Positions 14,589 through 41,394 of a stretch of DNA of 64,000 nucleotides are shown here, one piece after another. Position 1 is the stretch's first letter; the number at the start of each line of letters is the position of its first letter. The position numbers were made by a program, and so were the translations under genes. The stretch is from a virus, in the IMG/VR virus record IMGVR_UViG_3300036820_000002, positions 62,001 to 126,000 of that record; one strand, given 5' to 3'. The notes beneath the pieces are model-generated. The model saw only the letters and a program-made list of their open reading frames with translations. It was not told the origin of the DNA and made no database searches.

Positions 14589-14774
14589 TTATTTCTTCCT
14601 GAGCGTCCGGGCAACCCAGGCACCGTGGCGGCCGAACGGCACCACGTATCCTGCCTCGGTGTAGATCACTCCGTGTTTCAGCTTCGGGTTGATGCCTGCG
14701 CGCCCGGCAGCGTTGAGCGCGCAGGCCAGGTCATGCAGCAGCAGGGCATTCCTGCGCTTCTTCTTCCTGCTCAC
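14589..14774 (-). CDS. Small basic protein
   Basis: 61 residues from a GTG at 14774 that overlaps the upstream stop as GTGA. It starts SRKKKRRNALLLHDLACAL and ends GAWVARTLRKK, so it is strongly basic with one helix. No family recognised. The tight coupling in the head operon supports it being real. Confidence 0.6.
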   Translation of the reverse strand: MSRKKKRRNALLLHDLACALNAAGRAGINPKLKHGVIYTEAGYVVPFGRHGAWVARTLRKK

Positions 14775-15537: not shown

Positions 15538-18500
15538 TTACTTGTTCTCTGGTGAATTCCCCTGGTGCAGCTGCGCGGAATGTGTTTCCAGCGCGGCCAT
15601 CCGGTCCTGCGGGCGGATCGTGCCGATATAGGACAGCACATCCTGCTTCAGGTTGTGCCGGGCGATGGCGCGGTGGTGGCCGTCGACAAGGAATCCCTTG
15701 CTGCCGCCGGGTTCCTGGACCAGGATGCTCGGTGCGACATGGCCCTTGTGCGCGGTGATGGCCCGCTCGAATTCCTTTACCTTGCCCGGCTGGTGGGTGG
15801 CCGCCCATTTGCTGATGTCGTCGGTGTCGATGCTATCCCACGGCACTGAGACCGGTCCCTGCCAGGTAGCACGTTTCACCCAGGCGATCTTCTCCGGCGG
15901 GAAGTTCTGCGACATCGCCAGGTAAATGTGCTCCGCCTCGACGGGATTAGGGTCACGGAAGTCCGCTGCCCCTTTACGGGCTCCGGGAATGTCGTGGACG
16001 GTGTTTCCCTCAGGGGTGAGTTCCTCCACGGCCTCGCCGGGATCGAAGGCTTCCGGAGGGACGGCTCGCGGGTTATAGGGCTTCAGGGCCTGCGGTTCAT
16101 AGACCCCGACGACCGGGTGGCCGGAATCGTTCTTCGGGATGCCTGCGGCATCGCCGCCGGGATCACTGCCGATACCCCCGTCTGGCCAGGTTCCTTCTGT
16201 CTCCTGGCCGGGGAAGCGGCTCGCCGGGCGGTTACGGGTCCGGCGGCGGGGAAATGCGTCATCCTCGCTGCCCCGGGGGTAGATGACGGCCCCGGCGGAA
16301 TCGCTGTCCGGGTCGCTTCTGGGCGGTTCTCCCCCGGCGCTGCTTCCCGGTACTGCCCCGGGGCCGGCATCGGGCCATTCAGCACCCTGCGCGTTATGCG
16401 GGTAGGGCCAGCGGGCACCGCCGCCCTGCGCGGAGACGTCCTGGCCGTCCAGGACGATGCGCTCGCCGTTCTCGGTGACCATGTTCTGCAGGAACTTCAG
16501 CGAGTCATCCTTCAGGGTGTCGCTGAGATGGATCTCATCCTCCCAGTCACCCCGGAAGCCGCTGGTGAGATCCAGGCCGCTGACCTGGCTGCGGCGGAAC
16601 CAGGCTGCCCCGGCGCTTTCCTGCGGGGTGGACCCGTTCATCCTCGGGGTGAAGATCTCCGGAGCCTCGCAGAGCCACAGGTAGGAGGTTTTCCCGTCAG
16701 GGTCGGTGTGGGTGAAGTCGCGGATCACCCGCAGCTGCGGGATGTCCCCGATCTCCTCGGTGGTTTCCCGGACCGCCGCGTCCCAGCCGTCCTCGCCGGG
16801 GTGGGCGCTGCCGCCGGGCATGCCCCAGTCGCCGTCATCACGCTGCTGCAGCAGGTAACGCCATTTCCCGTGATCATCACGGGCCCGGATGAGCAGCCAG
16901 GCGACCCGCGCAGGGTCACCGGACTTATGCGCCAGCGGCGGGAGGGCTTCTACCCCTGCGGGCGCGGGAACGCAGCGGCAGCCGGGATGGCACAGCCCCA
17001 GCATCCCGCCGGCGGAGAAGGGAGCATCCAGCGGGATGTCGCCGTCATCGGCGGCGTTCAGGCAGGTATCGCAGGCATCCCCGGTCAGCAGGTGCTTGTA
17101 GGTGACCCCGGCGTCCTTGTAGGCGGCGAGCGCACCAGTATTCATGGCACGTGCCACCTCGGTATGGGCGATCATCTGGCTGCGGGCGGCGGAGTTGCCC
17201 AGACCGGTCCGGGAGACCTGGCTGAGCCAGTGCTGTCCCTCGGTATCCAGGAAGCCCTGTACCGCGTGCGGGTCAGGCTCGCCGTGATGGCCGGCCAGGA
17301 TAGTGCCGGATTCATAGCCCAGCTGCCAGGCGCTTTCCCACATCGGGGTCATCGCATCGAGGAAGATGCCCTTCGTCTGGTCGGCGATGATGTCCAGCAG
17401 CGTGCTCCGGGTGGTCATCAGCACCCCGGCAGCGGCATCCTTGCGAATCCCGGAGCTCTTGATCTCCGCGTCCTGGAACGCCTGCGCGATCACGGCGGTG
17501 TACTTATGGACCAGGGTGAGATCATGCTGCCAGCCGGGGAACCAGGACTCGCCGTGGTGGCGGATATGCGAGGCCTTCTCTTCGCCGAGGAGCTGCCCGG
17601 CTCGCTCGACCGCGACGTCCAGCAGGACGCCCTTGGCGATGTCCTCGGCGATCATGGCCAGGGTGCCGTTGCCGATGTGCTCAGGCTTCCAGGAGGAGAT
17701 CAGCCGGCCCTTGCGCAGGTGGCGGCGCAGCGCGTCCAGCTCTGAGGCCGCCGCCTTCTTCCGCGACCCCGCCACGGAGCTGCGGCTGGTGGTGCCGCCG
17801 GTCCTCGGGGTCGGGGACTGGACGGCGCCCTGGGCTGCCGCATGCCCGGGGGTGATGCCGCCTTCGCGGTGCGGGGCCAGCGGTGCCGGGTGACTGCCGT
17901 TGGGCTTGGTCTGCCCCGCCTGCCGGACGCTGGGCTGGCTGGTCCGGCTCCTGGTGGAGGAGGTGCGTTGCCCGGAGTTGGTGCCCTGCCCGGCCTGGGC
18001 CGCCGCGATGAGCTGCGGGGCCATGCTGAACGGGATCGGGCCTTGCGCGGTGAACACGACCGGCTCGCTGGTCTCCTGCAGGTTCCACGGCGGCAGGTCC
18101 AGCCGGTCGCGGACCTCATCGATGGAGGCGATGCCGTTCTGCACCTGCTGGACGCCCAGCTCAGTGATGGCCTGCTTGTCCTCGTCGTCGACGAGCCCCT
18201 CGAACTGGAACTGCATGTCCGGCATCTGGCAGATGTCCTGCAGGATGTGGTTGAAGATGTCGCAGAGGAACAGCAGCAGGGGCATCGTCGACTTGCGGGA
18301 CTTGATGTCACGGGACTGCTGCCCGGCGAACCGGACCCCGGACGCGCTCGGGCCGGTAGAGGTGCCGCCGATGTCGGGGATGATGCCCAGCTCCTGCGGC
18401 TGCACGTCGAAGGCCATGCAGACCTGGTTCATGACCAGGTAGTCGAAGGAGTCGGAGAGGTCCACCGGCCGCTGCGGCTCCACTTTCGAGCCCGGCGGCA

Positions 18501-19632
18501 GCACGACCACTTTCAGGTGGTAGGCGGGGTCGCCGGCAAGGGCGTTGAGGGCATTCTGCAGCTCCCCGATCTGGGTCGGGGTGATGTTCGGGTCGCCGGG
18601 AGAGATGTAGACCGCCGGGACAGTCCCCTCGGTGAAGTAGTCGAGCTGGAATTCCTGTTTCTGCAGCCCGGAGATGATCGGCAGCAGCGCCCGTTCCACC
18701 GGCGGGAAGCCGTAGGGGGATTCCCGTTGCGGCCAGTACGGGGCATACAGCATGATGTCGGTGCTGAACTTGTTGACCTCGGCCCCGGCCAGCCCGGCGT
18801 CATCGATGTCGGCACCGGTCGCGATCGTCATGTAGTCGCTGCGCGGCACCCCGTAGAGGAACTGCTGGTAGGCAGGCGCCGGGGGGGGCGGGTGCTCGCC
18901 GTGGATCCCGATCAGCGGCCGGATGGTGGGGCCGGAGACCAGCCGCAGGCTGTCCAGGTCGCTGCCGAGGAGGCCGCGCCCGCCCATCCCAAAGGAGGCG
19001 CCGTATTTCGGGCGGAAGATGACGGTCAGCGCGTCATACACGAAGATCTCTTCGAGAAGCGCGTTCAGGAAGCTCTGGAAGGTCCAGAAATCCGGGTCCG
19101 GGTGGCGGAAGAACCGCACCGCCTTGGCTTTGCGCTCGCCGAAGTCGCGCATCGCCTTCGCGTCACCCTGGTAGGCCTTGGCGGCGTCAGTGGTCAAGGT
19201 GATGTCCCAGCGCAGCCCCCGGATCTCCTGCTGGCGCAGGTCGATGGATGCCCTGGCGACAGAGTACTTCTGGGCCAGCGTGCGGAGCTGGTCGAAGGAG
19301 GCGAGCTTGAGGCCCTCGGTGCCGGGAGGGGTGGGCAGGTTCCAGCCGGTGCGGTACTGCCACAGCCGTGGGTCCGGGTAGAGGCCGCCGGACGGCGGCT
19401 CGTCGACGGGGACCGGCTGAATCGGGGACATCGGGGCGAATGCGCCGTCGGTGAAGACGCGGCTCGGGCGGGGCAGGAAGGGCCCGTAGGTGTTTGCATA
19501 GGGGTCCTGGAACCAGGCATTCGCCTGTACCGGGCTGATCTGGCCCATGCCGCCGGACTGGGGGGCGGGTGTGTAGCGGGCCCCGCCCGGGATTGCCTTC
19601 ATCGCGGCGACCAGCGCACCGGGACGCGCCAT
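15538..19632 (-). CDS. Portal protein fused to MuF, Nudix and ParB-like nuclease domains
   Basis: 1,364 residues from the ATG at 19632 (AGAAAGG upstream); numbering here is from that start. Residues about 80-530 are a portal (LYAPYWPQRESPYGFPP, FDVQPQELGIIPD). About 640-895 is an SPP1 gp7/MuF head morphogenesis domain (RSQMIAHTEVARAMNTGALA, then TGDACDTC and GLCHPGCRCVP). About 905-1035 is a Nudix hydrolase with a complete box (GGSAHPGEDGWDAAVRETTE then EIGD). After a Pro/Gly linker, about 1228-1340 carries a ParB/Srx-type nuclease core (GFLVDGHHRAIARHNLKQD). Portal-MuF fusions are known; the extra two enzyme domains suggest co-packaged effectors delivered with DNA. Confidence 0.85.
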   Translation of the reverse strand: MARPGALVAAMKAIPGGARYTPAPQSGGMGQISPVQANAWFQDPYANTYGPFLPRPSRVFTDGAFAPMSPIQPVPVDEPPSGGLYPDPRLWQYRTGWNLPTPPGTEGLKLASFDQLRTLAQKYSVARASIDLRQQEIRGLRWDITLTTDAAKAYQGDAKAMRDFGERKAKAVRFFRHPDPDFWTFQSFLNALLEEIFVYDALTVIFRPKYGASFGMGGRGLLGSDLDSLRLVSGPTIRPLIGIHGEHPPPPAPAYQQFLYGVPRSDYMTIATGADIDDAGLAGAEVNKFSTDIMLYAPYWPQRESPYGFPPVERALLPIISGLQKQEFQLDYFTEGTVPAVYISPGDPNITPTQIGELQNALNALAGDPAYHLKVVVLPPGSKVEPQRPVDLSDSFDYLVMNQVCMAFDVQPQELGIIPDIGGTSTGPSASGVRFAGQQSRDIKSRKSTMPLLLFLCDIFNHILQDICQMPDMQFQFEGLVDDEDKQAITELGVQQVQNGIASIDEVRDRLDLPPWNLQETSEPVVFTAQGPIPFSMAPQLIAAAQAGQGTNSGQRTSSTRSRTSQPSVRQAGQTKPNGSHPAPLAPHREGGITPGHAAAQGAVQSPTPRTGGTTSRSSVAGSRKKAAASELDALRRHLRKGRLISSWKPEHIGNGTLAMIAEDIAKGVLLDVAVERAGQLLGEEKASHIRHHGESWFPGWQHDLTLVHKYTAVIAQAFQDAEIKSSGIRKDAAAGVLMTTRSTLLDIIADQTKGIFLDAMTPMWESAWQLGYESGTILAGHHGEPDPHAVQGFLDTEGQHWLSQVSRTGLGNSAARSQMIAHTEVARAMNTGALAAYKDAGVTYKHLLTGDACDTCLNAADDGDIPLDAPFSAGGMLGLCHPGCRCVPAPAGVEALPPLAHKSGDPARVAWLLIRARDDHGKWRYLLQQRDDGDWGMPGGSAHPGEDGWDAAVRETTEEIGDIPQLRVIRDFTHTDPDGKTSYLWLCEAPEIFTPRMNGSTPQESAGAAWFRRSQVSGLDLTSGFRGDWEDEIHLSDTLKDDSLKFLQNMVTENGERIVLDGQDVSAQGGGARWPYPHNAQGAEWPDAGPGAVPGSSAGGEPPRSDPDSDSAGAVIYPRGSEDDAFPRRRTRNRPASRFPGQETEGTWPDGGIGSDPGGDAAGIPKNDSGHPVVGVYEPQALKPYNPRAVPPEAFDPGEAVEELTPEGNTVHDIPGARKGAADFRDPNPVEAEHIYLAMSQNFPPEKIAWVKRATWQGPVSVPWDSIDTDDISKWAATHQPGKVKEFERAITAHKGHVAPSILVQEPGGSKGFLVDGHHRAIARHNLKQDVLSYIGTIRPQDRMAALETHSAQLHQGNSPENK

Positions 19633-19642
19633 CCGTGCCTTT

Positions 19643-21607
19643 CTAGGAAATGGCCAGCTGGCCGGCAATGAGAACCGGGATCTCCGGGTCGTCGGTAATT
19701 TTCAGGTAGATGATGTAGGTGCCGATTCCCGGGTTCGCGGTTCCTGAAGGGCCGATCAGTGCCTGCGCCGAGTAGGGATACAGGACGTTGGAGGGCACCG
19801 AGATCCAGCTGCCGTTCACCCAGTCACCGGATTGCGGAACCTGGGTCGCAGTGGGCATGAAGGCGAACTGGACGGCATCCCCGGTCGGGTTATAGGCACT
19901 GCCGTTTTTCGCGGCCGTGACGGGAACGGAGATGTACTGGGTGGACAGCTGGGAGATGCCCAGCATCGAGTAACTGCCCACGACCCACTCCGCCTGCCCG
20001 GTTCCGGTGTCCCACAGGCTGCCGGGCGAGCCGGTGAGGAAGATGACGATTCCCGATGACGGGATCTGCCCGGTCGCATGGAATTGCGGGATGATACCCA
20101 GCAGTGCTGACCGGTAGTTCCCGTGCCTGCGCAGGGCCGTAAATCCTGGGTGGATGACCAGGGCCCCGGACCGCGCGTTGCCGTGAGAGCGGTATGCGGT
20201 GAATGCCGGGATGAGATCCAGGGATGCGGTGCGGTACTGCCCGTGGGCTCGCTGGGTGGTCAGTCCGGGAGTTACCGCGAGGGAGGCGGTCCGGTACTTC
20301 CCGTGGATCCTGGCAGCGGTAAACGCGGGGGTCACGGTCGTGGACGCGGTCCGGTACTTTCCTCGCGTCCGCACTGCGGTGAACGACGGGGTGACCGCGA
20401 GGGTGCTGGCCCGGTATTTTCCCCGGGTCCTGCTCGCGGTGAAGGACGGGGTGAGAGCCAGCGAGGCGGTCGCGGTATGCGCGATGCCCCCGGCCGGGGT
20501 GACTTCGACATCGACCCAGTAGTTCTCGCTGCCGGTAGTGAGCCCGGGGTACACCCAGGTGGTCTGGTAGGACCCCTGCCCGGGGCTGCCGCCGGCGTTA
20601 TCGGGAGCGGAGATGATGCCGTTGGTGATCCCGGCGCTGCCGGGCCCGGTCGACCAGTAGGCGCCGGTTACCGACATCCACTCCGACCCGGAGGCGTGGT
20701 ACGTCGAGACCTTGTAGTTCACCGACGCGGAGAGGCTGACTCCCGCTGAGGAGTAGTTGCAGTAGACCCAGCCTCCGCCGGCGGAGGCTGCCCCGCCGGC
20801 GGGGAGCAGCCAGCTCGGGGAGCTGTTGTCAGTCCCGGCGACCTCGGTGGTCGCTGAGACGTTCCACAGAGCGCACCGGGTAGGCAGGGATGCTGCCCCT
20901 GAGGGGGAGTAGTGCCAGATCTTATCCAGTGAGGAGGCCTGCGTGAGGCTGAACTCCGAGGCCAGGATGTAGCCGGTGACGTCGGAGCTGACCCCGGTGA
21001 GGTTATCCGGTAGCGAGGGCCAGAGCCGGTAGGTGGCACCGGACGGCGCGGTGGTGGTGATCTGGATGTCCAGCCAGCAGTTCCAGCCGGCGTCCGCGTC
21101 GGCGGCGAAGACGGACGTCGGGTCGGTGCTGGAGGGCTGGTAGACGCACTGGCTGTTGCCGTAAGGATCGGGATTGCTGCCGGTGCTGTCAGAGAAGGCG
21201 GTCAGCGGGCCGCTGACGATTCCTGCCGCGTAGGCGCCGCCGCTGGCGAATTCGGAATCTGTCAGCGGGAAAGGACCGGAGAATGCCGTCTGCGCCTGGT
21301 AGGTGGCGCCGGCGCTGAGCGGGACCGGCGTGGTGTAGGCAACGTAATTCCAGCCCGCGCTGAGCGTTCCTGACGTGACCTCGGTCCCGGGGACCAGGAT
21401 CCCGGCGGCACTGCCGTAGACCTGCCAGAGGCAGAATGGCTGCGCGGAGGTGCTCTGCCCGCCGGTACTGCAGACCCACCACCAGAAGCCGGCCAGGTAA
21501 AGGCCGCCGGAGGTGACCGTGAACTTGATGCCTGGCCCGAATGGCCCGGTAAAGTTCGTGGCAGCAGCCGGGCCGTTTGTCGAGGGCCACAGCCGGTAGG
21601 TGGTCAT
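19643..21607 (-). CDS. Fibre-like virion protein with DUF4082-like domains and tandem repeats
   Basis: 654 residues. Two related N-terminal domains each start YRLWPS (residues about 4 and 195) and contain the GWNYVAYTTPVPLSAGATY type pattern of DUF4082 beta domains. Residues about 375-510 are seven imperfect 20-residue repeats, consensus LAVTPSFTAxRxxGKYRTAS (60 bp in DNA). A C-terminal domain of about 140 residues follows. It sits between the portal and a tail-fibre-like gene rather than in the tail module. A head fibre or adhesin role is inferred. Confidence 0.7.
   Translation of the reverse strand: MTTYRLWPSTNGPAAATNFTGPFGPGIKFTVTSGGLYLAGFWWWVCSTGGQSTSAQPFCLWQVYGSAAGILVPGTEVTSGTLSAGWNYVAYTTPVPLSAGATYQAQTAFSGPFPLTDSEFASGGAYAAGIVSGPLTAFSDSTGSNPDPYGNSQCVYQPSSTDPTSVFAADADAGWNCWLDIQITTTAPSGATYRLWPSLPDNLTGVSSDVTGYILASEFSLTQASSLDKIWHYSPSGAASLPTRCALWNVSATTEVAGTDNSSPSWLLPAGGAASAGGGWVYCNYSSAGVSLSASVNYKVSTYHASGSEWMSVTGAYWSTGPGSAGITNGIISAPDNAGGSPGQGSYQTTWVYPGLTTGSENYWVDVEVTPAGGIAHTATASLALTPSFTASRTRGKYRASTLAVTPSFTAVRTRGKYRTASTTVTPAFTAARIHGKYRTASLAVTPGLTTQRAHGQYRTASLDLIPAFTAYRSHGNARSGALVIHPGFTALRRHGNYRSALLGIIPQFHATGQIPSSGIVIFLTGSPGSLWDTGTGQAEWVVGSYSMLGISQLSTQYISVPVTAAKNGSAYNPTGDAVQFAFMPTATQVPQSGDWVNGSWISVPSNVLYPYSAQALIGPSGTANPGIGTYIIYLKITDDPEIPVLIAGQLAIS
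20110..20475 (-). repeat. 60-bp tandem coding repeats
   Basis: About six to seven direct repeats with a 60-bp period inside the fibre-like gene, seen as recurring GGTCCGGTACTTTCC and GCGGTGAACG units on the plus strand. They encode the R-x-x-GKYRTAS units. Copies differ at roughly a third of codons, so they are not recent duplicates. Confidence 0.75.
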
Positions 21608-22842: not shown

Positions 22843-24525
22843 TCAGCGGCGCCGCCAGTCCTTGCCTGCATAGACGTGGGCTCCGGTACTGCTCCCGGTG
22901 AATGCCGCCAGCTGCTTCAGGTAGAACGAAGGGTCGGTATTGCATTCCGGGCAGCTGGGCATGTTCATCGGGCGCACATGATTGTTCTCGCAGGTGCGGG
23001 AGTAAGCCATATGCCAGCGGTTAGCACGGTCCCTGACCCTCTCCTTCTCCTGCGGCGCGATTCCTGCCCCGCAGTGCCGGCACATCTTGTCCAGCAGCTG
23101 GTTGACGTTCTCCCCGCACTCCGTGCAAGGGTAGAAGCTGTACATCTCCATGTAGCTGGCGCCACTGCGGCGGGACAGCTCGATCAGCGCCCAGATCGCG
23201 GCATCCGCGCGGTCATCGTGCTGGCGGGAGCGCTCGATCTCCGGGATCATCGCGGTCAGCTGCTTCTCCATCATCTCGAACTCGCCGACCATGTGCAGCC
23301 GTCCGGCCGCTGCCAGATGAGAGATGGATTCCGCGCGGATGTACTTGCCCTTCATCGCCGCGACGCTCTTGTAGGGGATGTTCGGGTCTTCCTTGGACAG
23401 CAGCTCCGGCATGTAGTCGCCGACGGTGTTCTCGCCGACGACCAGGTCTGCCTCCCAGCGGTGGAAGGCGCTGGCGACTACCTCCATGCACCGCTTGGGG
23501 GTACCGCGCAGGGAGAGGTCCTCCAGGATGTAGAAGTGATGATCACCGCTTTCGGCGGCCACGACGATCCCGGTCTCGTCGGAGGACTCGGAGGAGGTGG
23601 ACGCCGGGTCGATGGCCACCACGATGCGGCGCCATTCCGGTACGTCCTCGGGGTAGATGCGGTACTCACAGAAGTTCTCGGCGGAGAACAAGGCGCCGTC
23701 GGAGCCCTGCACCAGCTTGCCTTCCAGCTCCTGCTGTTCCAGGTAGGTGCCCTTGTACTGGCGGCGCAGGTCCGCCAGGGCGCCCTCGGCGAAGTAGGGG
23801 TTCTCACTGGAGGAGGCGGTGGTGATGTGGAAGCGGCGCGGGTCGGCGTTCGCCATCTCCACCAGGTCGCGGATCAGCCGCAGCTTGCTGGGGGTGGTGG
23901 TGATCATCAGCCGGGGGTCGTTGTTCTTCGGCTTGATCCGCAGCGCCGGCTTGAGGCCGTAGTCGAAGAAGCGGACGTACTTGATCATGGCCAGCTCGTC
24001 GAACCAGCAGTAGCTCAGGTTGGCGCCACGGACGGAGTCGACGTTCTCGGCGGAGAACCCCTGGATGATACTGCCGTTGCGCATCGTGATGGACAGGTTG
24101 TTCTTGTTGACTTCCCGGATCTCCCCGGGCTGCGCGTTCGCCACGATGCCGGACTGTAGGTCTTCGAAGCACGTCTTGCGCACGTGGATGTAGGTGGGGG
24201 CACAGACCCCGACGTAGATCTCCGGCTCCGACAGGGCCATCGCGATCGCCCACTCGGCGCCGGCCCGGGTCTTGCCGGTACCTCGTCCGGCCAGGCAGAT
24301 CCAGGTGGTCCAGTCCCTGGTCGGGCCGTCGCAGCCGCAGGAGTAGGTGACGCCCGTCTTGGGGTGGGTCCAGGGCAGGTGGTGGCGGGGATGATCGGGA
24401 GGCAGCTGCTTGTTCCGGGCCGCCAGCTCCCAGGGGCGCGGCTCGCTGGCGGCCCGCACGGCATGAAGCCAGCGGGCTATCTCCGCGTGGGTTTCCGGGG
24501 AGAGCTTCTTCGGGTCTTTAGGCAC
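22843..24525 (-). CDS. terL: Terminase large subunit with C-terminal zinc ribbons
   Basis: 560 residues from a GTG at 24525 (GGAGTGTGTGCC); six extra codons are open upstream. Walker A is AGRGTGKTRAGAEWA (residues 79-93) and Walker B is YCWFDELA (172-179). The nuclease part has VVAIDPASTSSESSDETG and ends with the metal-binding RQHDDRADAAIWAL. Residues 461-560 add three Cys pairs (CTECGEN, CRHCG, CPECN), a zinc-ribbon extension not usual in this family. It cuts and translocates DNA through the portal. Its probable small subunit is encoded 35 kb away. Confidence 0.92.
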   Translation of the reverse strand: MPKDPKKLSPETHAEIARWLHAVRAASEPRPWELAARNKQLPPDHPRHHLPWTHPKTGVTYSCGCDGPTRDWTTWICLAGRGTGKTRAGAEWAIAMALSEPEIYVGVCAPTYIHVRKTCFEDLQSGIVANAQPGEIREVNKNNLSITMRNGSIIQGFSAENVDSVRGANLSYCWFDELAMIKYVRFFDYGLKPALRIKPKNNDPRLMITTTPSKLRLIRDLVEMANADPRRFHITTASSSENPYFAEGALADLRRQYKGTYLEQQELEGKLVQGSDGALFSAENFCEYRIYPEDVPEWRRIVVAIDPASTSSESSDETGIVVAAESGDHHFYILEDLSLRGTPKRCMEVVASAFHRWEADLVVGENTVGDYMPELLSKEDPNIPYKSVAAMKGKYIRAESISHLAAAGRLHMVGEFEMMEKQLTAMIPEIERSRQHDDRADAAIWALIELSRRSGASYMEMYSFYPCTECGENVNQLLDKMCRHCGAGIAPQEKERVRDRANRWHMAYSRTCENNHVRPMNMPSCPECNTDPSFYLKQLAAFTGSSTGAHVYAGKDWRRR

Positions 24526-24540
24526 ACACTCCAGACATGG

Positions 24541-24574
24541 CAAGACCCCCGGGGGAAGGTTTCCGGGGGTCTTG
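24541..24574. terminator. 12-bp GC-rich stem-loop between lysin and terminase genes
   Basis: CAAGACCCCCGG pairs perfectly with CCGGGGGTCTTG across a 10-base loop. There is no U-run, so it may be an actinobacterial-type terminator, or an mRNA-processing or stability element. Confidence 0.6.
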
Positions 24575-25949: not shown

Positions 25950-26569
25950 GCTGCGGTGGGGACGCCGGGGATCCCGTCCTGCCAGACCAGCACCCAGCCG
26001 CTGAGGTGGCCGGAGTACTCCATGTGCGCGACCGGCTTGCGGCCCTGGTCATCAGTGCAGTCGCCGATGCACTGGATCAGCCCTTCCAGCGGCCTGATCC
26101 GGAGCGTGTGGCAGCGGCAGAAAGGGCAGACCGGTTCCGGCTGCCCGGGGGTGCGGGGCAGCCGGCGGGGCATCTCGGTGATGTCGAGGGCGATCTTGGC
26201 CCGGCGGGTCCAGGAGGACAGCGACCTCACCGCGATGCGCACAGAATCGTCGCAGACGGCATGAGCGAGCTGGCACAGGTTATTCACCGCTGCGGTGCTG
26301 TTCGCCCCGCTACCGCCCCGGTGGCGCACCGGGAGGCCCGCTTCCCGTTGCATCGAGGCTTCCAGCTGGCGGATCTCGGCGTGGAGATCGAGGACGGCGT
26401 CAGCGGCAGTGGCATTCCACGGCGGCTGGCTGAAGTCGAGCTTGCCTCGCCGGTGCTCGCCACCTGACGGACGGATCCCGATCACCGCTTCGAGGAGGTC
26501 CCCGAACCGGATGACGCCGTCGGCGAGAGTCCTGAGTTCTTCACGGAGCGGGATGCCGTCAGGTTTCAC
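25946..26569 (-). CDS. Actinophage hypothetical protein with zinc knuckle
   Basis: 207 residues. An N-terminal helical region (TLADGVIRFGDLLEAVIG, then WNATAADAVLDLHAEIRQLE) is followed by a C-terminal CPFCRCHTLR and a Cys pair CIGDC, probably one zinc site. This arrangement recurs in actinobacteriophage genomes beside head or lysis genes. No function is known to me. It is the first gene of a four-gene coupled set. Confidence 0.65.
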   Translation of the reverse strand: MKPDGIPLREELRTLADGVIRFGDLLEAVIGIRPSGGEHRRGKLDFSQPPWNATAADAVLDLHAEIRQLEASMQREAGLPVRHRGGSGANSTAAVNNLCQLAHAVCDDSVRIAVRSLSSWTRRAKIALDITEMPRRLPRTPGQPEPVCPFCRCHTLRIRPLEGLIQCIGDCTDDQGRKPVAHMEYSGHLSGWVLVWQDGIPGVPTAA

Positions 26570-26587
26570 CTCATGAGGATAACATTT

Positions 26588-26947
26588 TCATCCCAGGCCG
26601 TCACCGCGCAGGTTCCTCACGATGGCGACAGCCTGGGTATCTTTCCGCTGCTGGTCCGGCGGCAGTTCCCGCCACGGCCGCAGGCACGGGTGCGTCCTGG
26701 GCGTGGCACACGGGTCCTTGACCTCACCCAGGACCCAGCCCAGGGCGGTCATCTCATCCGCCCACACCTCGTGGATGGCCTCGGGACCGTATCCCTGCTC
26801 GATGAGCGCGACCCGGCGGATGACCTGCTGCCGGTGCGCCCCGGAGAGGGTCTCCCAGGGGCCGTCGGGGGCGGGATCGGCGAGTGCGATATTGAGGGCG
26901 CAGTGGGCTGCATGGACGACTTGCGCGGTCTGCTCGGCAGTCAGCAT
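26588..26947 (-). CDS. RyR-domain protein
   Basis: 119 residues, ATG start. Residues about 55-110 show the ryanodine-receptor repeat pattern: IHEVWADEMTALGWVLGEVK, then HPCLRPWRELPPDQQRKD. RyR domains are found in many phages and mobile elements and are thought to bind nucleotide-type ligands or proteins, but their job in phages is unknown. It is divergent from the metallophosphoesterase gene, with only 46 bases between starts. Confidence 0.75.
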   Translation of the reverse strand: MLTAEQTAQVVHAAHCALNIALADPAPDGPWETLSGAHRQQVIRRVALIEQGYGPEAIHEVWADEMTALGWVLGEVKDPCATPRTHPCLRPWRELPPDQQRKDTQAVAIVRNLRGDGLG

Positions 26948-26979
26948 CAGGTTCTCCGTCTCTACGCTTCTGCGGGCAG

Positions 26980-26985
26980 TATATT
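26980..26985 (+). promoter_or_regulatory. -10 element for a probable leaderless transcript
   Basis: TATATT lies eight bases before the ATG of the metallophosphoesterase gene and no ribosome site intervenes. Transcription would start at about the A of the ATG, the arrangement of actinobacterial leaderless mRNAs. Confidence 0.5.
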
Positions 26986-26993
26986 CTCAGTTC

Positions 26994-27908
26994 ATGAACG
27001 ATGCGGACCGGATAGGGATAGCAGGGGACTGGCACGGCCACGCGCAGTGGGCGGTGATCGCCATCCACGCGATGGCGGCGCTGCTGGGGGAGCACCCGCT
27101 GATCCTGCAGCTCGGTGATCTCGGGGTCTACCCCGATGACGGGCGGCGGGAGTGGATGGGGCGGACCTGGACGGAGCAGACCTTCCTGGAGGCGGTCAGC
27201 GAGGCGCTGGAGGCCTGTGACGGGGAGCTCGTGTTCATTGAGGGCAACCATGAGGACCATGAGCTACTGAAGGGGAGGGAGGCGGCCTGGCGTGATGCCT
27301 GCGACGCGTTCATGGACTGCCCGTGCGGCAGCGGTGACTATGACAGCTGCCAGGACTGCACGGCCGTATACTGCACCCGTCACGGGGACGGGCAGCTGCC
27401 CCGGCCGGTGATCATCGCGCCCAGGATCACCTGGCTGCCCCGGGGGTACCGGTGGCAGTGGCATGACCGGACCTGGCTGGCCTGCGGCGGGGCGGTGTCG
27501 GTGGACAAGCTGCTGCGCACCGAGGGCACTGACTGGTTCGCGGGGGAAGAGATCACCGATGAGGAGGAGGCGATGATCATCGCCGGCGGTCATGCCGACG
27601 TGGTGGTCAGCCATGATGCCCCTCGCTGCGTGGGATTGCAGCTGATGAGCCCTCCGCCCAGGATGTGGGAGGCGATGATCCCGGCGGCGGAGGCGCACCG
27701 GGAGAGGATGCAGCGGATCGGGGAGGGAGTGACTCCTTCCTGGTGGTTCCACGGGCATTACCACCAGACCCACTGCACTGGGGTGCGGATCGGGGAGCGG
27801 GGGGGCTGGTGCGAGGTGCGCGGTCTCCACATGAACGGGTGCGACGGGAACTGGGGCATCCTGGATCTTTCCTCGATGACCTGGCTGGAACCGGGGGAGC
27901 CTGCGTGA
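26994..27908 (+). CDS. Calcineurin-like metallophosphoesterase
   Basis: 304 residues. All metal-binding motifs are present: GDWHGH near residue 10 (D-x-H), LGDLGVY at about 40, GNHEDHE at about 83, VSHDAP at about 200 and GHYHQTH at about 255. A Cys-rich insert (CPCGSGDYDSCQDC, then CTRHGDG) at about 103-125 probably binds zinc. It hydrolyses a phosphoester, possibly a nucleic acid end or cyclic nucleotide. It is the first plus-strand gene and is coupled by GTGA to the antirepressor gene. Confidence 0.87.
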   Translation: MNDADRIGIAGDWHGHAQWAVIAIHAMAALLGEHPLILQLGDLGVYPDDGRREWMGRTWTEQTFLEAVSEALEACDGELVFIEGNHEDHELLKGREAAWRDACDAFMDCPCGSGDYDSCQDCTAVYCTRHGDGQLPRPVIIAPRITWLPRGYRWQWHDRTWLACGGAVSVDKLLRTEGTDWFAGEEITDEEEAMIIAGGHADVVVSHDAPRCVGLQLMSPPPRMWEAMIPAAEAHRERMQRIGEGVTPSWWFHGHYHQTHCTGVRIGERGGWCEVRGLHMNGCDGNWGILDLSSMTWLEPGEPA

Positions 27909-28702
27909 CCGGCGTCGTGGAGTGCGGTGAATCCTACGTTTTCCCGGTGACCGGGCAGCCGGTCCGAACCGTCACCATCGACGGCGAGCCGTGGTTCGTG
28001 GGGCGAGATGTCGCCGGAGCGCTCGGGTATACCAATCCGCGCAAAGCCGTGAGGGATCACGTTCCCGCAGGTCACCATAGGGGGAACGAATCGTTCCCCC
28101 TATCTGACCTGGGCTTTCAGGCGCAGACGGTACTGATTGATGAGCCCGGCATGTACCGGCTGATCATGCGCGCCAGCACCGCGCTTGCCGAGCGGTTCCA
28201 GGAGTGGGTGACCGCTGAGGTACTGCCCGCTATCCGCACGACGGGCAACTACAGCGTTCGGTCCGTGCAGCCGCATGTGGCGGACCTCACCACGCCTGAA
28301 GGCGTGATGGTGCTGGCCGGCCTTTACCAGGACGCCGCTCGCCGGCTTGTTGATGCTACCCGGCGAGTGGCGGAGCTGGAGCCGCGAGCGGAGGCCTGGG
28401 ATTCACTGGGAAGCGGTACTGACAGCTGGTCTCTCCGTGATGCTGCCGGCATTCTTAATCAGGACTGGCAGATAGATACCGGCCAGAATAGGCTGCTGGC
28501 CTACCTGAAGGCGCAGGGGATGATTGACCGTAACGATATCCCCTATGCCCGTTACTCACGGTATCTGACGGGATGCCCCAAGGAGTACACCTCCCCTAGC
28601 GGCAAGACGGTGACACGTCGTCAGATCAGGATCACCCATGACGGGCTTGGCTACCTGCGCCGCCGTCTTGCCGGACCTGTGCAGCTGCGGCTGCTGTCCT
28701 AG
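27905..28702 (+). CDS. Phage antirepressor, Bro-N plus KilAC-type
   Basis: 265 residues from a GTG at 27905 overlapping the previous stop. The Bro-N half shows GEPWFVGRDVAGALGYTNPR and a C-terminal ERFQEWVTAEVLPAIRTTG; the second half (SLRDAAGILN, LLAYLKAQGMI, KTVTRRQIRITHDGLGYLRR) is the KilAC/ANT DNA-binding domain. It probably counteracts a repressor or binds operator DNA. It lies 0.5 kb from the palindrome array, which is a plausible, untested target. Its stop shares a CTAG with the opposing membrane gene. Confidence 0.87.
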   Translation: MTGVVECGESYVFPVTGQPVRTVTIDGEPWFVGRDVAGALGYTNPRKAVRDHVPAGHHRGNESFPLSDLGFQAQTVLIDEPGMYRLIMRASTALAERFQEWVTAEVLPAIRTTGNYSVRSVQPHVADLTTPEGVMVLAGLYQDAARRLVDATRRVAELEPRAEAWDSLGSGTDSWSLRDAAGILNQDWQIDTGQNRLLAYLKAQGMIDRNDIPYARYSRYLTGCPKEYTSPSGKTVTRRQIRITHDGLGYLRRRLAGPVQLRLLS

Positions 28703-28881: not shown

Positions 28882-29009
28882 GTTGATATCCTTTCTTTTC
28901 TACGGGTAGTACAACATACCAGGGCAGCGGGATGTTCCCTGATCCCCGGTGATTGACGCCAGTCTAACCCTCTACGCGTGGAAGAGCTTTTTTTCCCTGA
29001 AATATCAAG

Positions 29010-29041
29010 CAGCCCTCTACACACGAGGGCTGTTTTTTTTT
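29010..29041 (+). terminator. Rho-independent terminator
   Basis: CAGCCCTC pairs with GAGGGCTG across TACACAC, followed by nine T residues. It ends plus-strand transcription coming from the antirepressor gene or reads as a boundary before the palindrome array. Confidence 0.85.
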
Positions 29042-29142
29042 AACAAACTGCGGCCATGCTCCTGCTGAAACTCTCCTGCAAGCGGTTGCGCGGTTTCCGC
29101 TGATTTCCTTTTCATATCCGAGGGGGCCTGACGGCATTCCCG

Positions 29143-29197
29143 GTTAACTGCGTTAACTACAGGTGAATCATCCTAACCCCAAGTTAACCGCATTAGC
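29143..29197. repeat. Two outlying copies of the 15-bp palindrome
   Basis: GTTAACTGCGTTAAC (29143-29157) and GTTAACCGCATTAGC (29183-29197) follow the same GTTAR-N5-YTAAC plan as the main array. A third copy, GTTAACGCCGTTAAC, is at 31396-31410, on the far side of the gene-free region. Confidence 0.7.
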
Positions 29198-29200
29198 TGA

Positions 29201-29239
29201 TAATTCGAACAAATGTGCGTAGAGTACATATTCGAATTA
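29201..29239. repeat. Long inverted repeat next to the palindrome array
   Basis: TAATTCGAA (29201-29209) and its exact complement TTCGAATTA (29231-29239) are separated by 21 bases. Each arm contains the palindrome TTCGAA. It sits 13 bases before the first array unit in the most AT-rich part of the window. Confidence 0.7.
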
Positions 29240-29251
29240 TTACAGCACATC

Positions 29252-29422
29252 GTTAGCAAGACTAACCTTATTCGTTAGCAAGGCTAAGAGTAATGGTTAG
29301 TGGTGCTAAGAGTAATGGTTAGTGCTGCTAACCGTTATTGTTAGCGGTGCTAAGGGGAAGTAGTTAGCAGCACTAACCTTATTTGTTAGTTATGCTAACC
29401 ATTATCCGTTAGTATAACTAAC
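29252..29422. repeat. Array of eight 15-bp palindromes, GTTAG-N5-CTAAS
   Basis: Units start at 29252, 29274, 29296, 29318, 29340, 29363, 29385 and 29408, with periods 22, 22, 22, 22, 23, 22 and 23 bp. Arms are nearly invariant (GTTAG left; CTAAC in five, CTAAG in three) while the five central bases vary. Spacing of about two helical turns puts all sites on one face of the DNA. This is the layout of a cooperative protein-binding array: iterons of an origin, a centromere-like site or multiple operators. Confidence 0.85.
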
Positions 29423-30112
29423 CTTTACCCCTGAGCGATGCTCACCGTTGACCGTGACCGCCGGAGGCGCTTGAGCTTCAAGCTCGTCACCCGTCAGTGA
29501 CTGCCCCTGACTGCCCCTGTGCGCCCCGCTGCCGGTCCGGGGTACCCGTCCTACGCCCTTCACCTCCCGAACCCGTCTGCGTGGCTGCCAGCCGCTTGCA
29601 GGGGGTACTGGGGTACTGCCCATCTCCCAGCTACGGCCGGGTTCCGCTCTCACCCGTCGGGCGTTCCTCTATTCGAGAAAACGCCCTCTGACGGTGGTCG
29701 CTCCGCTCCCCGTTTCTCTTTCTCCCCGTAACCTGAAGGTACACCGAGCCTATTGTAGACTCGTTTTTCTGCATTGACACGTAATTGCAGGTCAGCCGGC
29801 GTGTCGCGGTGTTCTGACTACCTACGTCCTCCCCTCCACGTGGTCCGCTTCCCCCACGCACTTGCGTATGGCCCTGAGAGCCTCTGTGGCGGGTCTACAT
29901 AGGGGGGCCAGTGTCATCACATCACCGAACCCCCGGTCGTCATTCTCCCTGCTCAGCAGCGTTGTGCAGGGGCACTCACGCACCACTACCCCGAGGTGGA
30001 GCTCTCCTAGTGACCGGAGTATGTACTCACGGTGATGTCAACCCCCTCTCTTTGTTACATTCCCTGGTGAGCATGTGGTGTTTCCGCAGCTCAAATATGC
30101 TGACAAGCGTAG

Positions 30113-30128
30113 TGTGACCTAGATCACA
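30113..30128. promoter_or_regulatory. CRP-type palindrome TGTGA-N6-TCACA
   Basis: TGTGACCTAGATCACA matches the CRP-family consensus exactly at both half sites. Actinobacterial CRP/GlxR regulators bind this motif. No gene starts close by, so chance occurrence or an unknown transcript must be considered. Confidence 0.45.
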
Positions 30129-31548
30129 GGGAAAGCTTTACAACCTCCTCCCACCTGGTCTTTCTTCTCATCGGTGCTGGTAGTGGACGTGGAGTACCCG
30201 GAGAGCATGTGTTACGTTTCGGGGAGTTTCACAGCACGGTCCGCCGGTTCGGGGGCCGCTTCACTCGCACGACGTAGGTTGGTGGTCCCCCGTCGGGGGC
30301 CGGACGGAAACAGCAGCGACGGCTGACAACTTCATGACGGAAAACCTAGCGGGATGCGTGGATGTGGTCGCATCGTGGTGAGCTAGGGTCACTGATCCCC
30401 CGAGAACTACGGCAACGGTCCCCTGAGAATGGCGGAACCTAGCTCCATAAATGGGTAGCGATCACGGATCTTTGCAAGTGACCCAATACGGCGTAACACG
30501 CGGGAGTAACCCCCGTAACCCTGATGTCATGGGGTTCTTGCAGGTCAAAGTCACTGTTCTGTCCGGTAGCACATGTGCAAATGTGCGCAGTACCGGATTG
30601 CTGGTGACGCACCGATACGTTAGGTAGGGATCACGTGATCCCCGGGACAGGTCGTACCTGTTCCATGCGGACCGTAAACCGGACCGGTAGGTATTCACGC
30701 TGCCGGGAGGTGACTTGTCACCTCGGAACCAATAAGGCCGGACAATCGGGTAGCACAGTCCGTCATATGCCCATTGACATGTCCAGTACGACATGCGGAT
30801 GGGGTTCTCATGAGGTGATGCTGTCTTGGCGGTAGCCAGGCACAACGGAAGGGCCGCAGCTATGCCCTTGATTCTCCCTTGTGCCTCGGCGTGAACAGAC
30901 GGAGCGGTAGGTCCCGCTCCCCCGGTAAAGCACCAGGCAGTGATACAACCACCCGACATCACACGCAGCGGGCAGGACAGTTGACAGATGCCCTGTGCCG
31001 CGTGCAACCACTCCAAGGCAGTCCGCTTACGGGACACGCCGCACGACGGAGTGGCGTTACCCGTCGCCCTGGTCAGCAGAGATTCAGGTCCCATTGTCCT
31101 TACCCGATGGGCCGGTAAAGAGTGAACATTACTCTTCCGGTTACCACTTATGACATTGCGGCTTCTTCGCTGACCAGGGACCTTCGACGGCAGTTTTCAG
31201 AGTCGCCTTACGTTCATGGTGGCTCACGGCGGCTAAGCGTTCACGCTCCCCTTCCGCATGCCGGCAGCCTTCAGTGGCTAGCGGGTGCATGCTTGCGGGC
31301 GGCTCACTGAATGCGGATTCACCGTGAGCGGCTATGTCGGCAGGGAGACTTACCGACAGCACATACACCAGCCAGCGATCATTTACGGGTCGTTGGTTAA
31401 CGCCGTTAACCGCATCCAACGACGCAGATACCACGCGGGAACGTGGTTTGGCTCACTCCTTGAACAGGTCATGACACCCTTTACGGGTGACAGGGAATGC
31501 CTGCCCGGACAGTCCAGAGTATCCACGCGGTTACGGAAAGTCACTCAG

Positions 31549-31740
31549 ATGAGAAAGGTCATCGTGCCAATTTCTTCTTCGCCGAGAGCCCGGCGTGTCG
31601 CGGTGCTGGTCATCATCACCCTGGTGATGGTAACGGGCATCGCTATCGGTCACGTCACTACGTCGCGCACCGTCACGATCGTGTGCACCCAGACCGTTTC
31701 TCACGGTCAGAGCTACCTGAATAACTGTTTTTACCGGTAA
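31549..31740 (+). CDS. Small single-pass membrane protein
   Basis: 63 residues from the ATG at 31549 (GGAAAG ten bases upstream). A basic N-terminus (SSSPRARR) precedes one hydrophobic segment (VAVLVIITLVMVTGIAIGHV), then a short periplasmic/extracellular tail with two Cys. The frame is open further upstream without coding character. It is the first gene of the long plus-strand accessory block. Confidence 0.6.
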   Translation: MRKVIVPISSSPRARRVAVLVIITLVMVTGIAIGHVTTSRTVTIVCTQTVSHGQSYLNNCFYR

Positions 31741-40992: not shown

Positions 40993-41394
40993 ATGACCGA
41001 CCTGATCAGCGGCAGTGCTCTCGCGAGGGAGCTGGGCTGCGCCCGTTCCGCCGTAACCAACTGGGTCACCCGCGATATCCTCCCCGACCACCTCAAGCCC
41101 GTCAACCGGGTTGACCGCAATAATCCCGCTGTCAGGGGCAGGCCGGTCTGGGACCGGGCACAGCTCCCCGCCTTCCGCGAGTGGCGCGCGTCCCATGCTC
41201 CCCGTTTCTCCCTCCGCAACACCCCCACCCGGAAGTTCTTCCTGGTCACCGTGGATGCCCCGGAGGAATTCACCGCCAGGGTCATCCAGGCAGCGCTCAT
41301 CACCGCGCTGGATGCACCGGATAACTACCCGCTGGATGTCAGCGAGTGGGATGTCATCGTCGAAGACCTGCACCGGAAAGAAGAGAAGCCATGA
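40993..41394 (+). CDS. HTH DNA-binding protein (MerR/excisionase-like)
   Basis: 133 residues, ATG after GAAGAGAAGAGAAAAG. Residues 5-35 (SGSALARELGCARSAVTNWV, then TRDILPDHL) form a helix-turn-helix followed by a wing. The C-terminal part (KFFLVTVDAPEEFTARVIQA) is a separate small fold. Likely a regulator or accessory recombination protein. Possible -10 hexamer TAGAGT at 40961-40966. Confidence 0.68.
   Translation: MTDLISGSALARELGCARSAVTNWVTRDILPDHLKPVNRVDRNNPAVRGRPVWDRAQLPAFREWRASHAPRFSLRNTPTRKFFLVTVDAPEEFTARVIQAALITALDAPDNYPLDVSEWDVIVEDLHRKEEKP

Follow-up and report, generated by a model that had tools for sequence, protein, structure and literature searches.

A tandem array of GTTAGY palindromes at the core of a conserved non-coding locus in large high-GC phages: a possible replication origin

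Genomic setting of the locus

The window analysed here is a 64,000-bp stretch of viral DNA, corresponding to bases 62001-126000 of a 130,268-bp virus record (G000). Late genes, including those for the terminase (22843-24543) and a portal fusion (15538-19668), run leftward and small early genes run rightward, and a long non-coding locus lies at their divergence (Table 1). The lowest GC of the 130-kb record falls inside this locus in both 250-bp and 2-kb windows. No tRNA or Rfam RNA was found in the locus, and a search for the DnaA box TTRTCCACA gave no match there. The portal gene reads as a single 1376-aa frame in which a NUDIX-like stretch, recognized by eye, follows the portal region; the C-terminus of the fusion carries a ParB/Srx-like "DGHHR" motif that is also present in the related records G013 and G017.

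Table 1. Features in and beside the non-coding locus (positions in the window)
Feature	Position	Strand	Remark
Bro-N/KilAC antirepressor gene, array neighbour	27941..28702	+	unlikely binder
Non-coding locus between leftward and rightward gene blocks	28882..31551	.	~2.6 kb, no convincing ORF
Intrinsic terminator, left side of locus	29007..29046 (29007-29035)	+	–
Flanking variant site GTTAACTGCGTTAAC	29143..29157	.	GTTAAC arms
Flanking variant site GTTAACCGCATTAGC, imperfect	29183..29197	.	GTTAAC arms
Inverted repeat ATAATTCGAA ... TTCGAATTAT	29200..29240 (arms 29200-29209 / 29231-29240)	.	directly before array
Core array, eight GTTAGY-N3-RCTAA(C/G) palindromes	29252..29422	.	22/23-bp steps; 7-8-bp linkers, mostly AT-rich; GC 0.39
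GCAGGTCA element, first copy	29787..29794	+	recurs in array loci of eight phages
Crp-type palindrome TGTGACCTAGATCACA	30113..30128	.	sole one in window
GCAGGTCA element, second copy	30540..30547	+	–
Flanking site GTTAACGCCGTTAAC, right edge of locus	31396..31410	.	13-bp core repeated at matching place in G013
Possible first gene of rightward early block, 62-aa membrane protein	31552..31740	+	–

The first-pass annotation had described, around a set of eight palindromes, three relaxed copies as well as an adjoining inverted repeat, AT-rich tract, and terminator. All of these are present, and the GTTAAC arms of the relaxed copies represent a related but distinct motif, with GTTAAC-N3-GTTAAC occurring in the window at 29143 and 31396 only. 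The 31396 palindrome is nested in a larger dyad (TCGTTGG...CCAACGA). The nearest relative, G013, matches G000 in having CTGACGGCATT before its array and, at the matching locus edge after it, the TAACGCCGTTAAC of the 31396 site.

The palindrome array

The eight palindromes start at 29252, 29274, 29296, 29318, 29340, 29363, 29385, and 29408, in successive steps of 22, 22, 22, 22, 23, 22, and 23 bp. These coordinates bear out the number and spacing first reported, and in an order-2 simulation of the non-coding region no trial among 2000 contained more than one such site, compared to the eight observed. The mean step of 22.3 bp matches an 11-bp rather than a 10.5-bp helical repeat. A search of the whole record, proposed to reveal whether the motif is scattered genome-wide, found GTTAGN5CTAA nowhere in the 130,268 bp outside the array.

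The left arm is GTTAG in every copy, and the right arm is CTAAC in five and CTAAG in three. The arms are nearly invariant, as had been noticed, while the variability ascribed to the centres is confined to the middle three bases, since base 6 is always C or T and base 10 always A or G; the half-sites are separated by this N3 spacer in all copies. Across the centre, bases 6 and 10 face each other as C-A in two copies and as T-G in three, which is no consistent pairing. This points to a dimeric protein that recognizes the duplex, and a hairpin of single-stranded DNA or RNA was rejected as unlikely because of the C-A combination in two copies.

Distribution among related phages

Relatives were found by scans of viral contigs followed by cluster analysis and whole-record searches. 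Single arrays of the same motif were also found in other high-GC records of phages, at least seven in all, which comprise two lineages and a 39-kb phage. One array per genome was found in G000, G013, G017, G008, G001, G006, G002, and G003, the last a 20-kb fragment only, with few sites of comparable quality elsewhere. In the first lineage, G003, G013/G018, and G017 have late genes in common with G000. The second consists of G001, G006, and G008, together with L297, which has degenerate sites only. The 39-kb phage, G002, carries six perfect copies at 22-bp steps and a degenerate seventh, and G005 has an array with 24-bp steps at a contig end. GC content is at its lowest in the array region (in 250-bp windows, 2-kb windows, or both) in G000, G013, G003, G006, G017, G002, and G008, but not in G001.

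The helical phasing originally suggested, seen in the regular 22/23-bp spacing of G000, does not extend in strict form to all relatives. Steps are 22/22/34 in G003 and 21/34-35 in G006, alternate between 22 and 16 in G001, and are irregular in G017 and in G008 (30, 26, 34, and 16). Strict phasing is not required, because the steps of the relatives vary in this way.

The hosts are probably actinobacteria, as indicated by GC content and gene character. The locus had no blastn match among isolated phages, and the array had none among plasmids. A 21-bp match between the edge of the G002 array and phiC31 DNA downstream of int was found at a single place with an E-value of 0.6 and was dismissed as chance. 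In a pattern scan of genome contigs, the matches listed were mostly scattered sites. Also set aside were several viral contigs of low GC in which GTTAGC-type repeats recur every 15 bp, as these look like in-frame coding repeats and not such arrays. To the left of the array in G001 (48-66 kb, L061) and G006 (120-137 kb, L068), an FtsK/TraB-like gene and its companions resemble, by eye, actinobacterial conjugation genes; these two records are listed as viruses and may represent phage-plasmids or conjugative elements.

Several other signals are common to the array loci. First, GCAGGTCA occurs 20 times across the non-coding loci of the array phages compared to 2.8 expected. Second, TTCGAA occurs 28 times compared to 1.4 expected, with sites recurring in the array loci of G001, G003, G006, G013, G017, and L297. 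Third, TGTGAN6TCACA is found in the loci of G001, G006, and L297 as well, so that Crp-type sites are present in four loci including that of G000. The simplest reading of these combined signals is a control region that serves several proteins.

Candidate binding proteins

In our judgement, which is not a computed value, it is quite probable that the array is a set of duplex palindromes bound by a phage protein. The Crp-type sites show that host factors may act at the locus, and the array could in principle capture a host transcription factor for the phage. Of 395 actinobacterial genomes, only 2 have a comparable pair of sites, and the four genomes checked for perfect single sites contain 0-3 of them, which makes capture of a host factor extremely improbable. 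The factor is probably phage-encoded, since such site pairs are hardly ever seen in the chromosomes of actinobacteria. The cooperative protein-DNA complex envisaged in the first-pass annotation is supported as far as tandem duplex palindromes at one locus, in related and unrelated phages, are concerned; the cooperativity itself is what we infer from this arrangement.

The search for a DNA-binding protein family common to all array phages found none, and a number of candidates were rejected. The KilA-type antirepressor, earlier put forward for binding tests, is an unlikely binder because it is missing from array-bearing relatives: no homologue of the KilA/Bro-N protein was found in G013, G017, G001, G006, G008, or G002, nor in the G003 fragment. 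PadR is present only in G001 and G006. HTH133 (window 40993-41394) has weak matches only, to its HTH part in G002 and to its C-terminal part in G006. The half-sites of the iron box recognized by DtxR/IdeR are one base apart compared to five here, and that reading was rejected.

A binder of the ParB/KorB type is the candidate that we take most seriously, although our judgement, again not computed, stops a little short of calling it probable. G000 encodes a 376-aa protein with a candidate ParB fold outside the window (record 26017-27147). The first 20 structures in its list of PDB matches all belong to the ParB family, with a probability of up to 1.00 for a low-confidence model (mean pLDDT 49.5), while Pfam ParB_N reached an E-value of 0.02 only. 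A homologue is present in G013, and none was found in the other array records searched. In the second lineage (G001/G006/G008/L297), the locus is followed directly by a gene for an HTH protein that is helical almost throughout and has a long C-terminal helix. The best structural matches of this protein, weak ones with E-values of 1.5 and above, are KorB-operator and ParB complexes. Profile comparison of the G000 protein with this downstream protein gave no sequence link.

The KorB operator OB of plasmid RK2, TTTAGCGGCTAAA, consists of TTAGC half-sites arranged as a palindrome, to which a dimer of the ParB family binds (PMC11790492). The array has the TTAGC half-site in common with OB, the half-site in G000 being TTAGC or TTAGT, but the spacer is one base in OB and three in every G000 copy. 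Furthermore, the KorB sites of RK2 are dispersed whereas those of G000 stand in tandem, and the ParB/KorB-type binder is here a candidate. The half-site of a plasmid ParB-family repressor may serve phage proteins too, which would link plasmid and phage control circuits.

Possible functions of the locus

In the best reading, the array forms the core of a non-coding control locus that is conserved among large high-GC phages. The first-pass annotation had offered an origin, a centromere, or an operator cluster. An origin is favoured among these, because of the AT-rich minimum, the divergent position, the multi-signal make-up, and the iteron-like spacing; a centromere dependent on ParA is weakened, and an operator cluster is possible. 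That the array locus forms part of a phage replication origin is our tentative view of its role, plausible and still below what we would call probable. Phage-encoded DNA-binding dimers would occupy each palindrome through the half-site GTTAGY, one dimer for about every two helical turns, and would stack side by side into a nucleoprotein complex where the genome is richest in AT. Such a complex could aid DNA opening and the loading of replication proteins, and may also control the two divergent gene blocks via the GTTAAC sites on either side. A protein with a ParB/KorB-type helix-turn-helix would be the likeliest kind of binder.

Lambda O sites and the iterons of RK2 and R6K are tandem initiator sites about 19-22 bp apart beside AT-rich DNA, and plasmid iterons are mostly non-palindromic. 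The G000 locus resembles these lambda-type and plasmid origins in its eight regularly spaced sites (22/23 bp) and in the adjacent AT-rich region, which is the GC minimum of the genome. It differs in that its sites are 15-bp palindromes in a long non-coding locus, and no initiator gene was recognized in or beside that locus in G000; an HTH protein adjoins the locus only in the G001/G006/G008/L297 lineage. A GC skew check, earlier suggested for mapping the origin and here corrected for gene direction, is if anything against it, showing a break at the array in G000 only, of polarity opposite to that of a usual origin, and none in four relatives. Strand composition did not confirm the origin, and the lack of DnaA boxes in the locus also counts against it.

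In a limited literature search, the only replication starts found for large actinobacterial phages were those of mycobacteriophage prophages. Extrachromosomal prophages of this kind have RNA-based and RepA origins beside parABS, and the authors report that no repeated motifs were identified (PMC7157519). These are likewise replication regions of actinobacterial phages, some of them non-coding. Compared to the G000 locus, they differ in the adjoining parABS, and the RNA structure of 29430-30400 in G000 is not significant (z -1.25).

Other functions would also account for parts of the evidence. KorB, which uses the same half-site, represses over long distances, the gene blocks diverge, variant sites lie near both edges (one of them conserved in G013), and G006 has a lone site 40 bp ahead of its leftward PadR gene. 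All this is consistent with a hub for transcriptional silencing or switching, at which a KorB-like phage repressor would load on the array and shut the divergent early and late blocks, with the flanking GTTAAC sites as promoter operators. However, 2.6 kb of non-coding DNA with genome-minimum GC exceeds the needs of a promoter region, and consensus sigma-70 promoters, the one type covered by the scan, were not above chance in the locus. We consider such a hub unlikely.

The parS/parC centromeres likewise consist of repeats clustered in one place and bound in a cooperative complex, as would be expected here, and the tandem palindromes resemble such arrays. The array would then be the partition site of a plasmid-like prophage, in line with a genome in which a ParB-fold protein is encoded and no tyrosine integrase was found. 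In contrast to those systems, a ParA-type ATPase (PF13614) was absent from the 18 records searched, and the KilA-type gene is the only evidence of lysogeny, so that a centromere appears quite improbable.

It is very improbable that the array is a packaging site (pac/cos) recognized by a helix-turn-helix protein of the small terminase kind. A conserved HTH-like protein of 83-95 aa is encoded near the large terminase gene in G000, G003, G013, and G017, and numerous contigs end close to the array. However, no homologue of this protein was found in G001, G006, G008, or G002, and contig ends could be explained by tandem repeats breaking the assembly. Moreover, the locus is spanned by the G000 assembly, which has a permuted order compared to G013. 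The two therefore do not both have a fixed end at the locus.

If the locus is an origin, the array would supply a sequence signature for the replication start of large actinobacterial phages, along with a small number of phages and candidate proteins for testing. A wider generalization, which we regard as doubtful, is that GTTAGY arrays with TTCGAA, GCAGGTCA, and Crp-type sites make up a common type of replication or control locus in large uncultured high-GC phages, organized by phage proteins of the ParB/KorB fold that have no ParA partner and, in one lineage, lack the ParB CTPase domain.

Other features of the genome

Outside the window, record G000:C1:12062-14500 (L056) encodes a 519-aa protein with a Cas12f1-like/TnpB nuclease domain, a homologue of which is encoded by G006. 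Directly after this gene lie about 13 GTGATAGTCTCTGATCAGAGAATGAATTGCGAC repeats with a 72-bp period and differing spacers, and the nuclease and repeats together look like a miniature type V CRISPR system carried by the phage. At G000:C1:23325-25034 (L057), a probable intein with Hint and splicing domains interrupts a possible recombination or annealing protein. Small secreted proteins that resemble, by eye, ricin-type lectins are encoded near 14663, 35466, 37678, 41300, and 129366 of record G000:C1.
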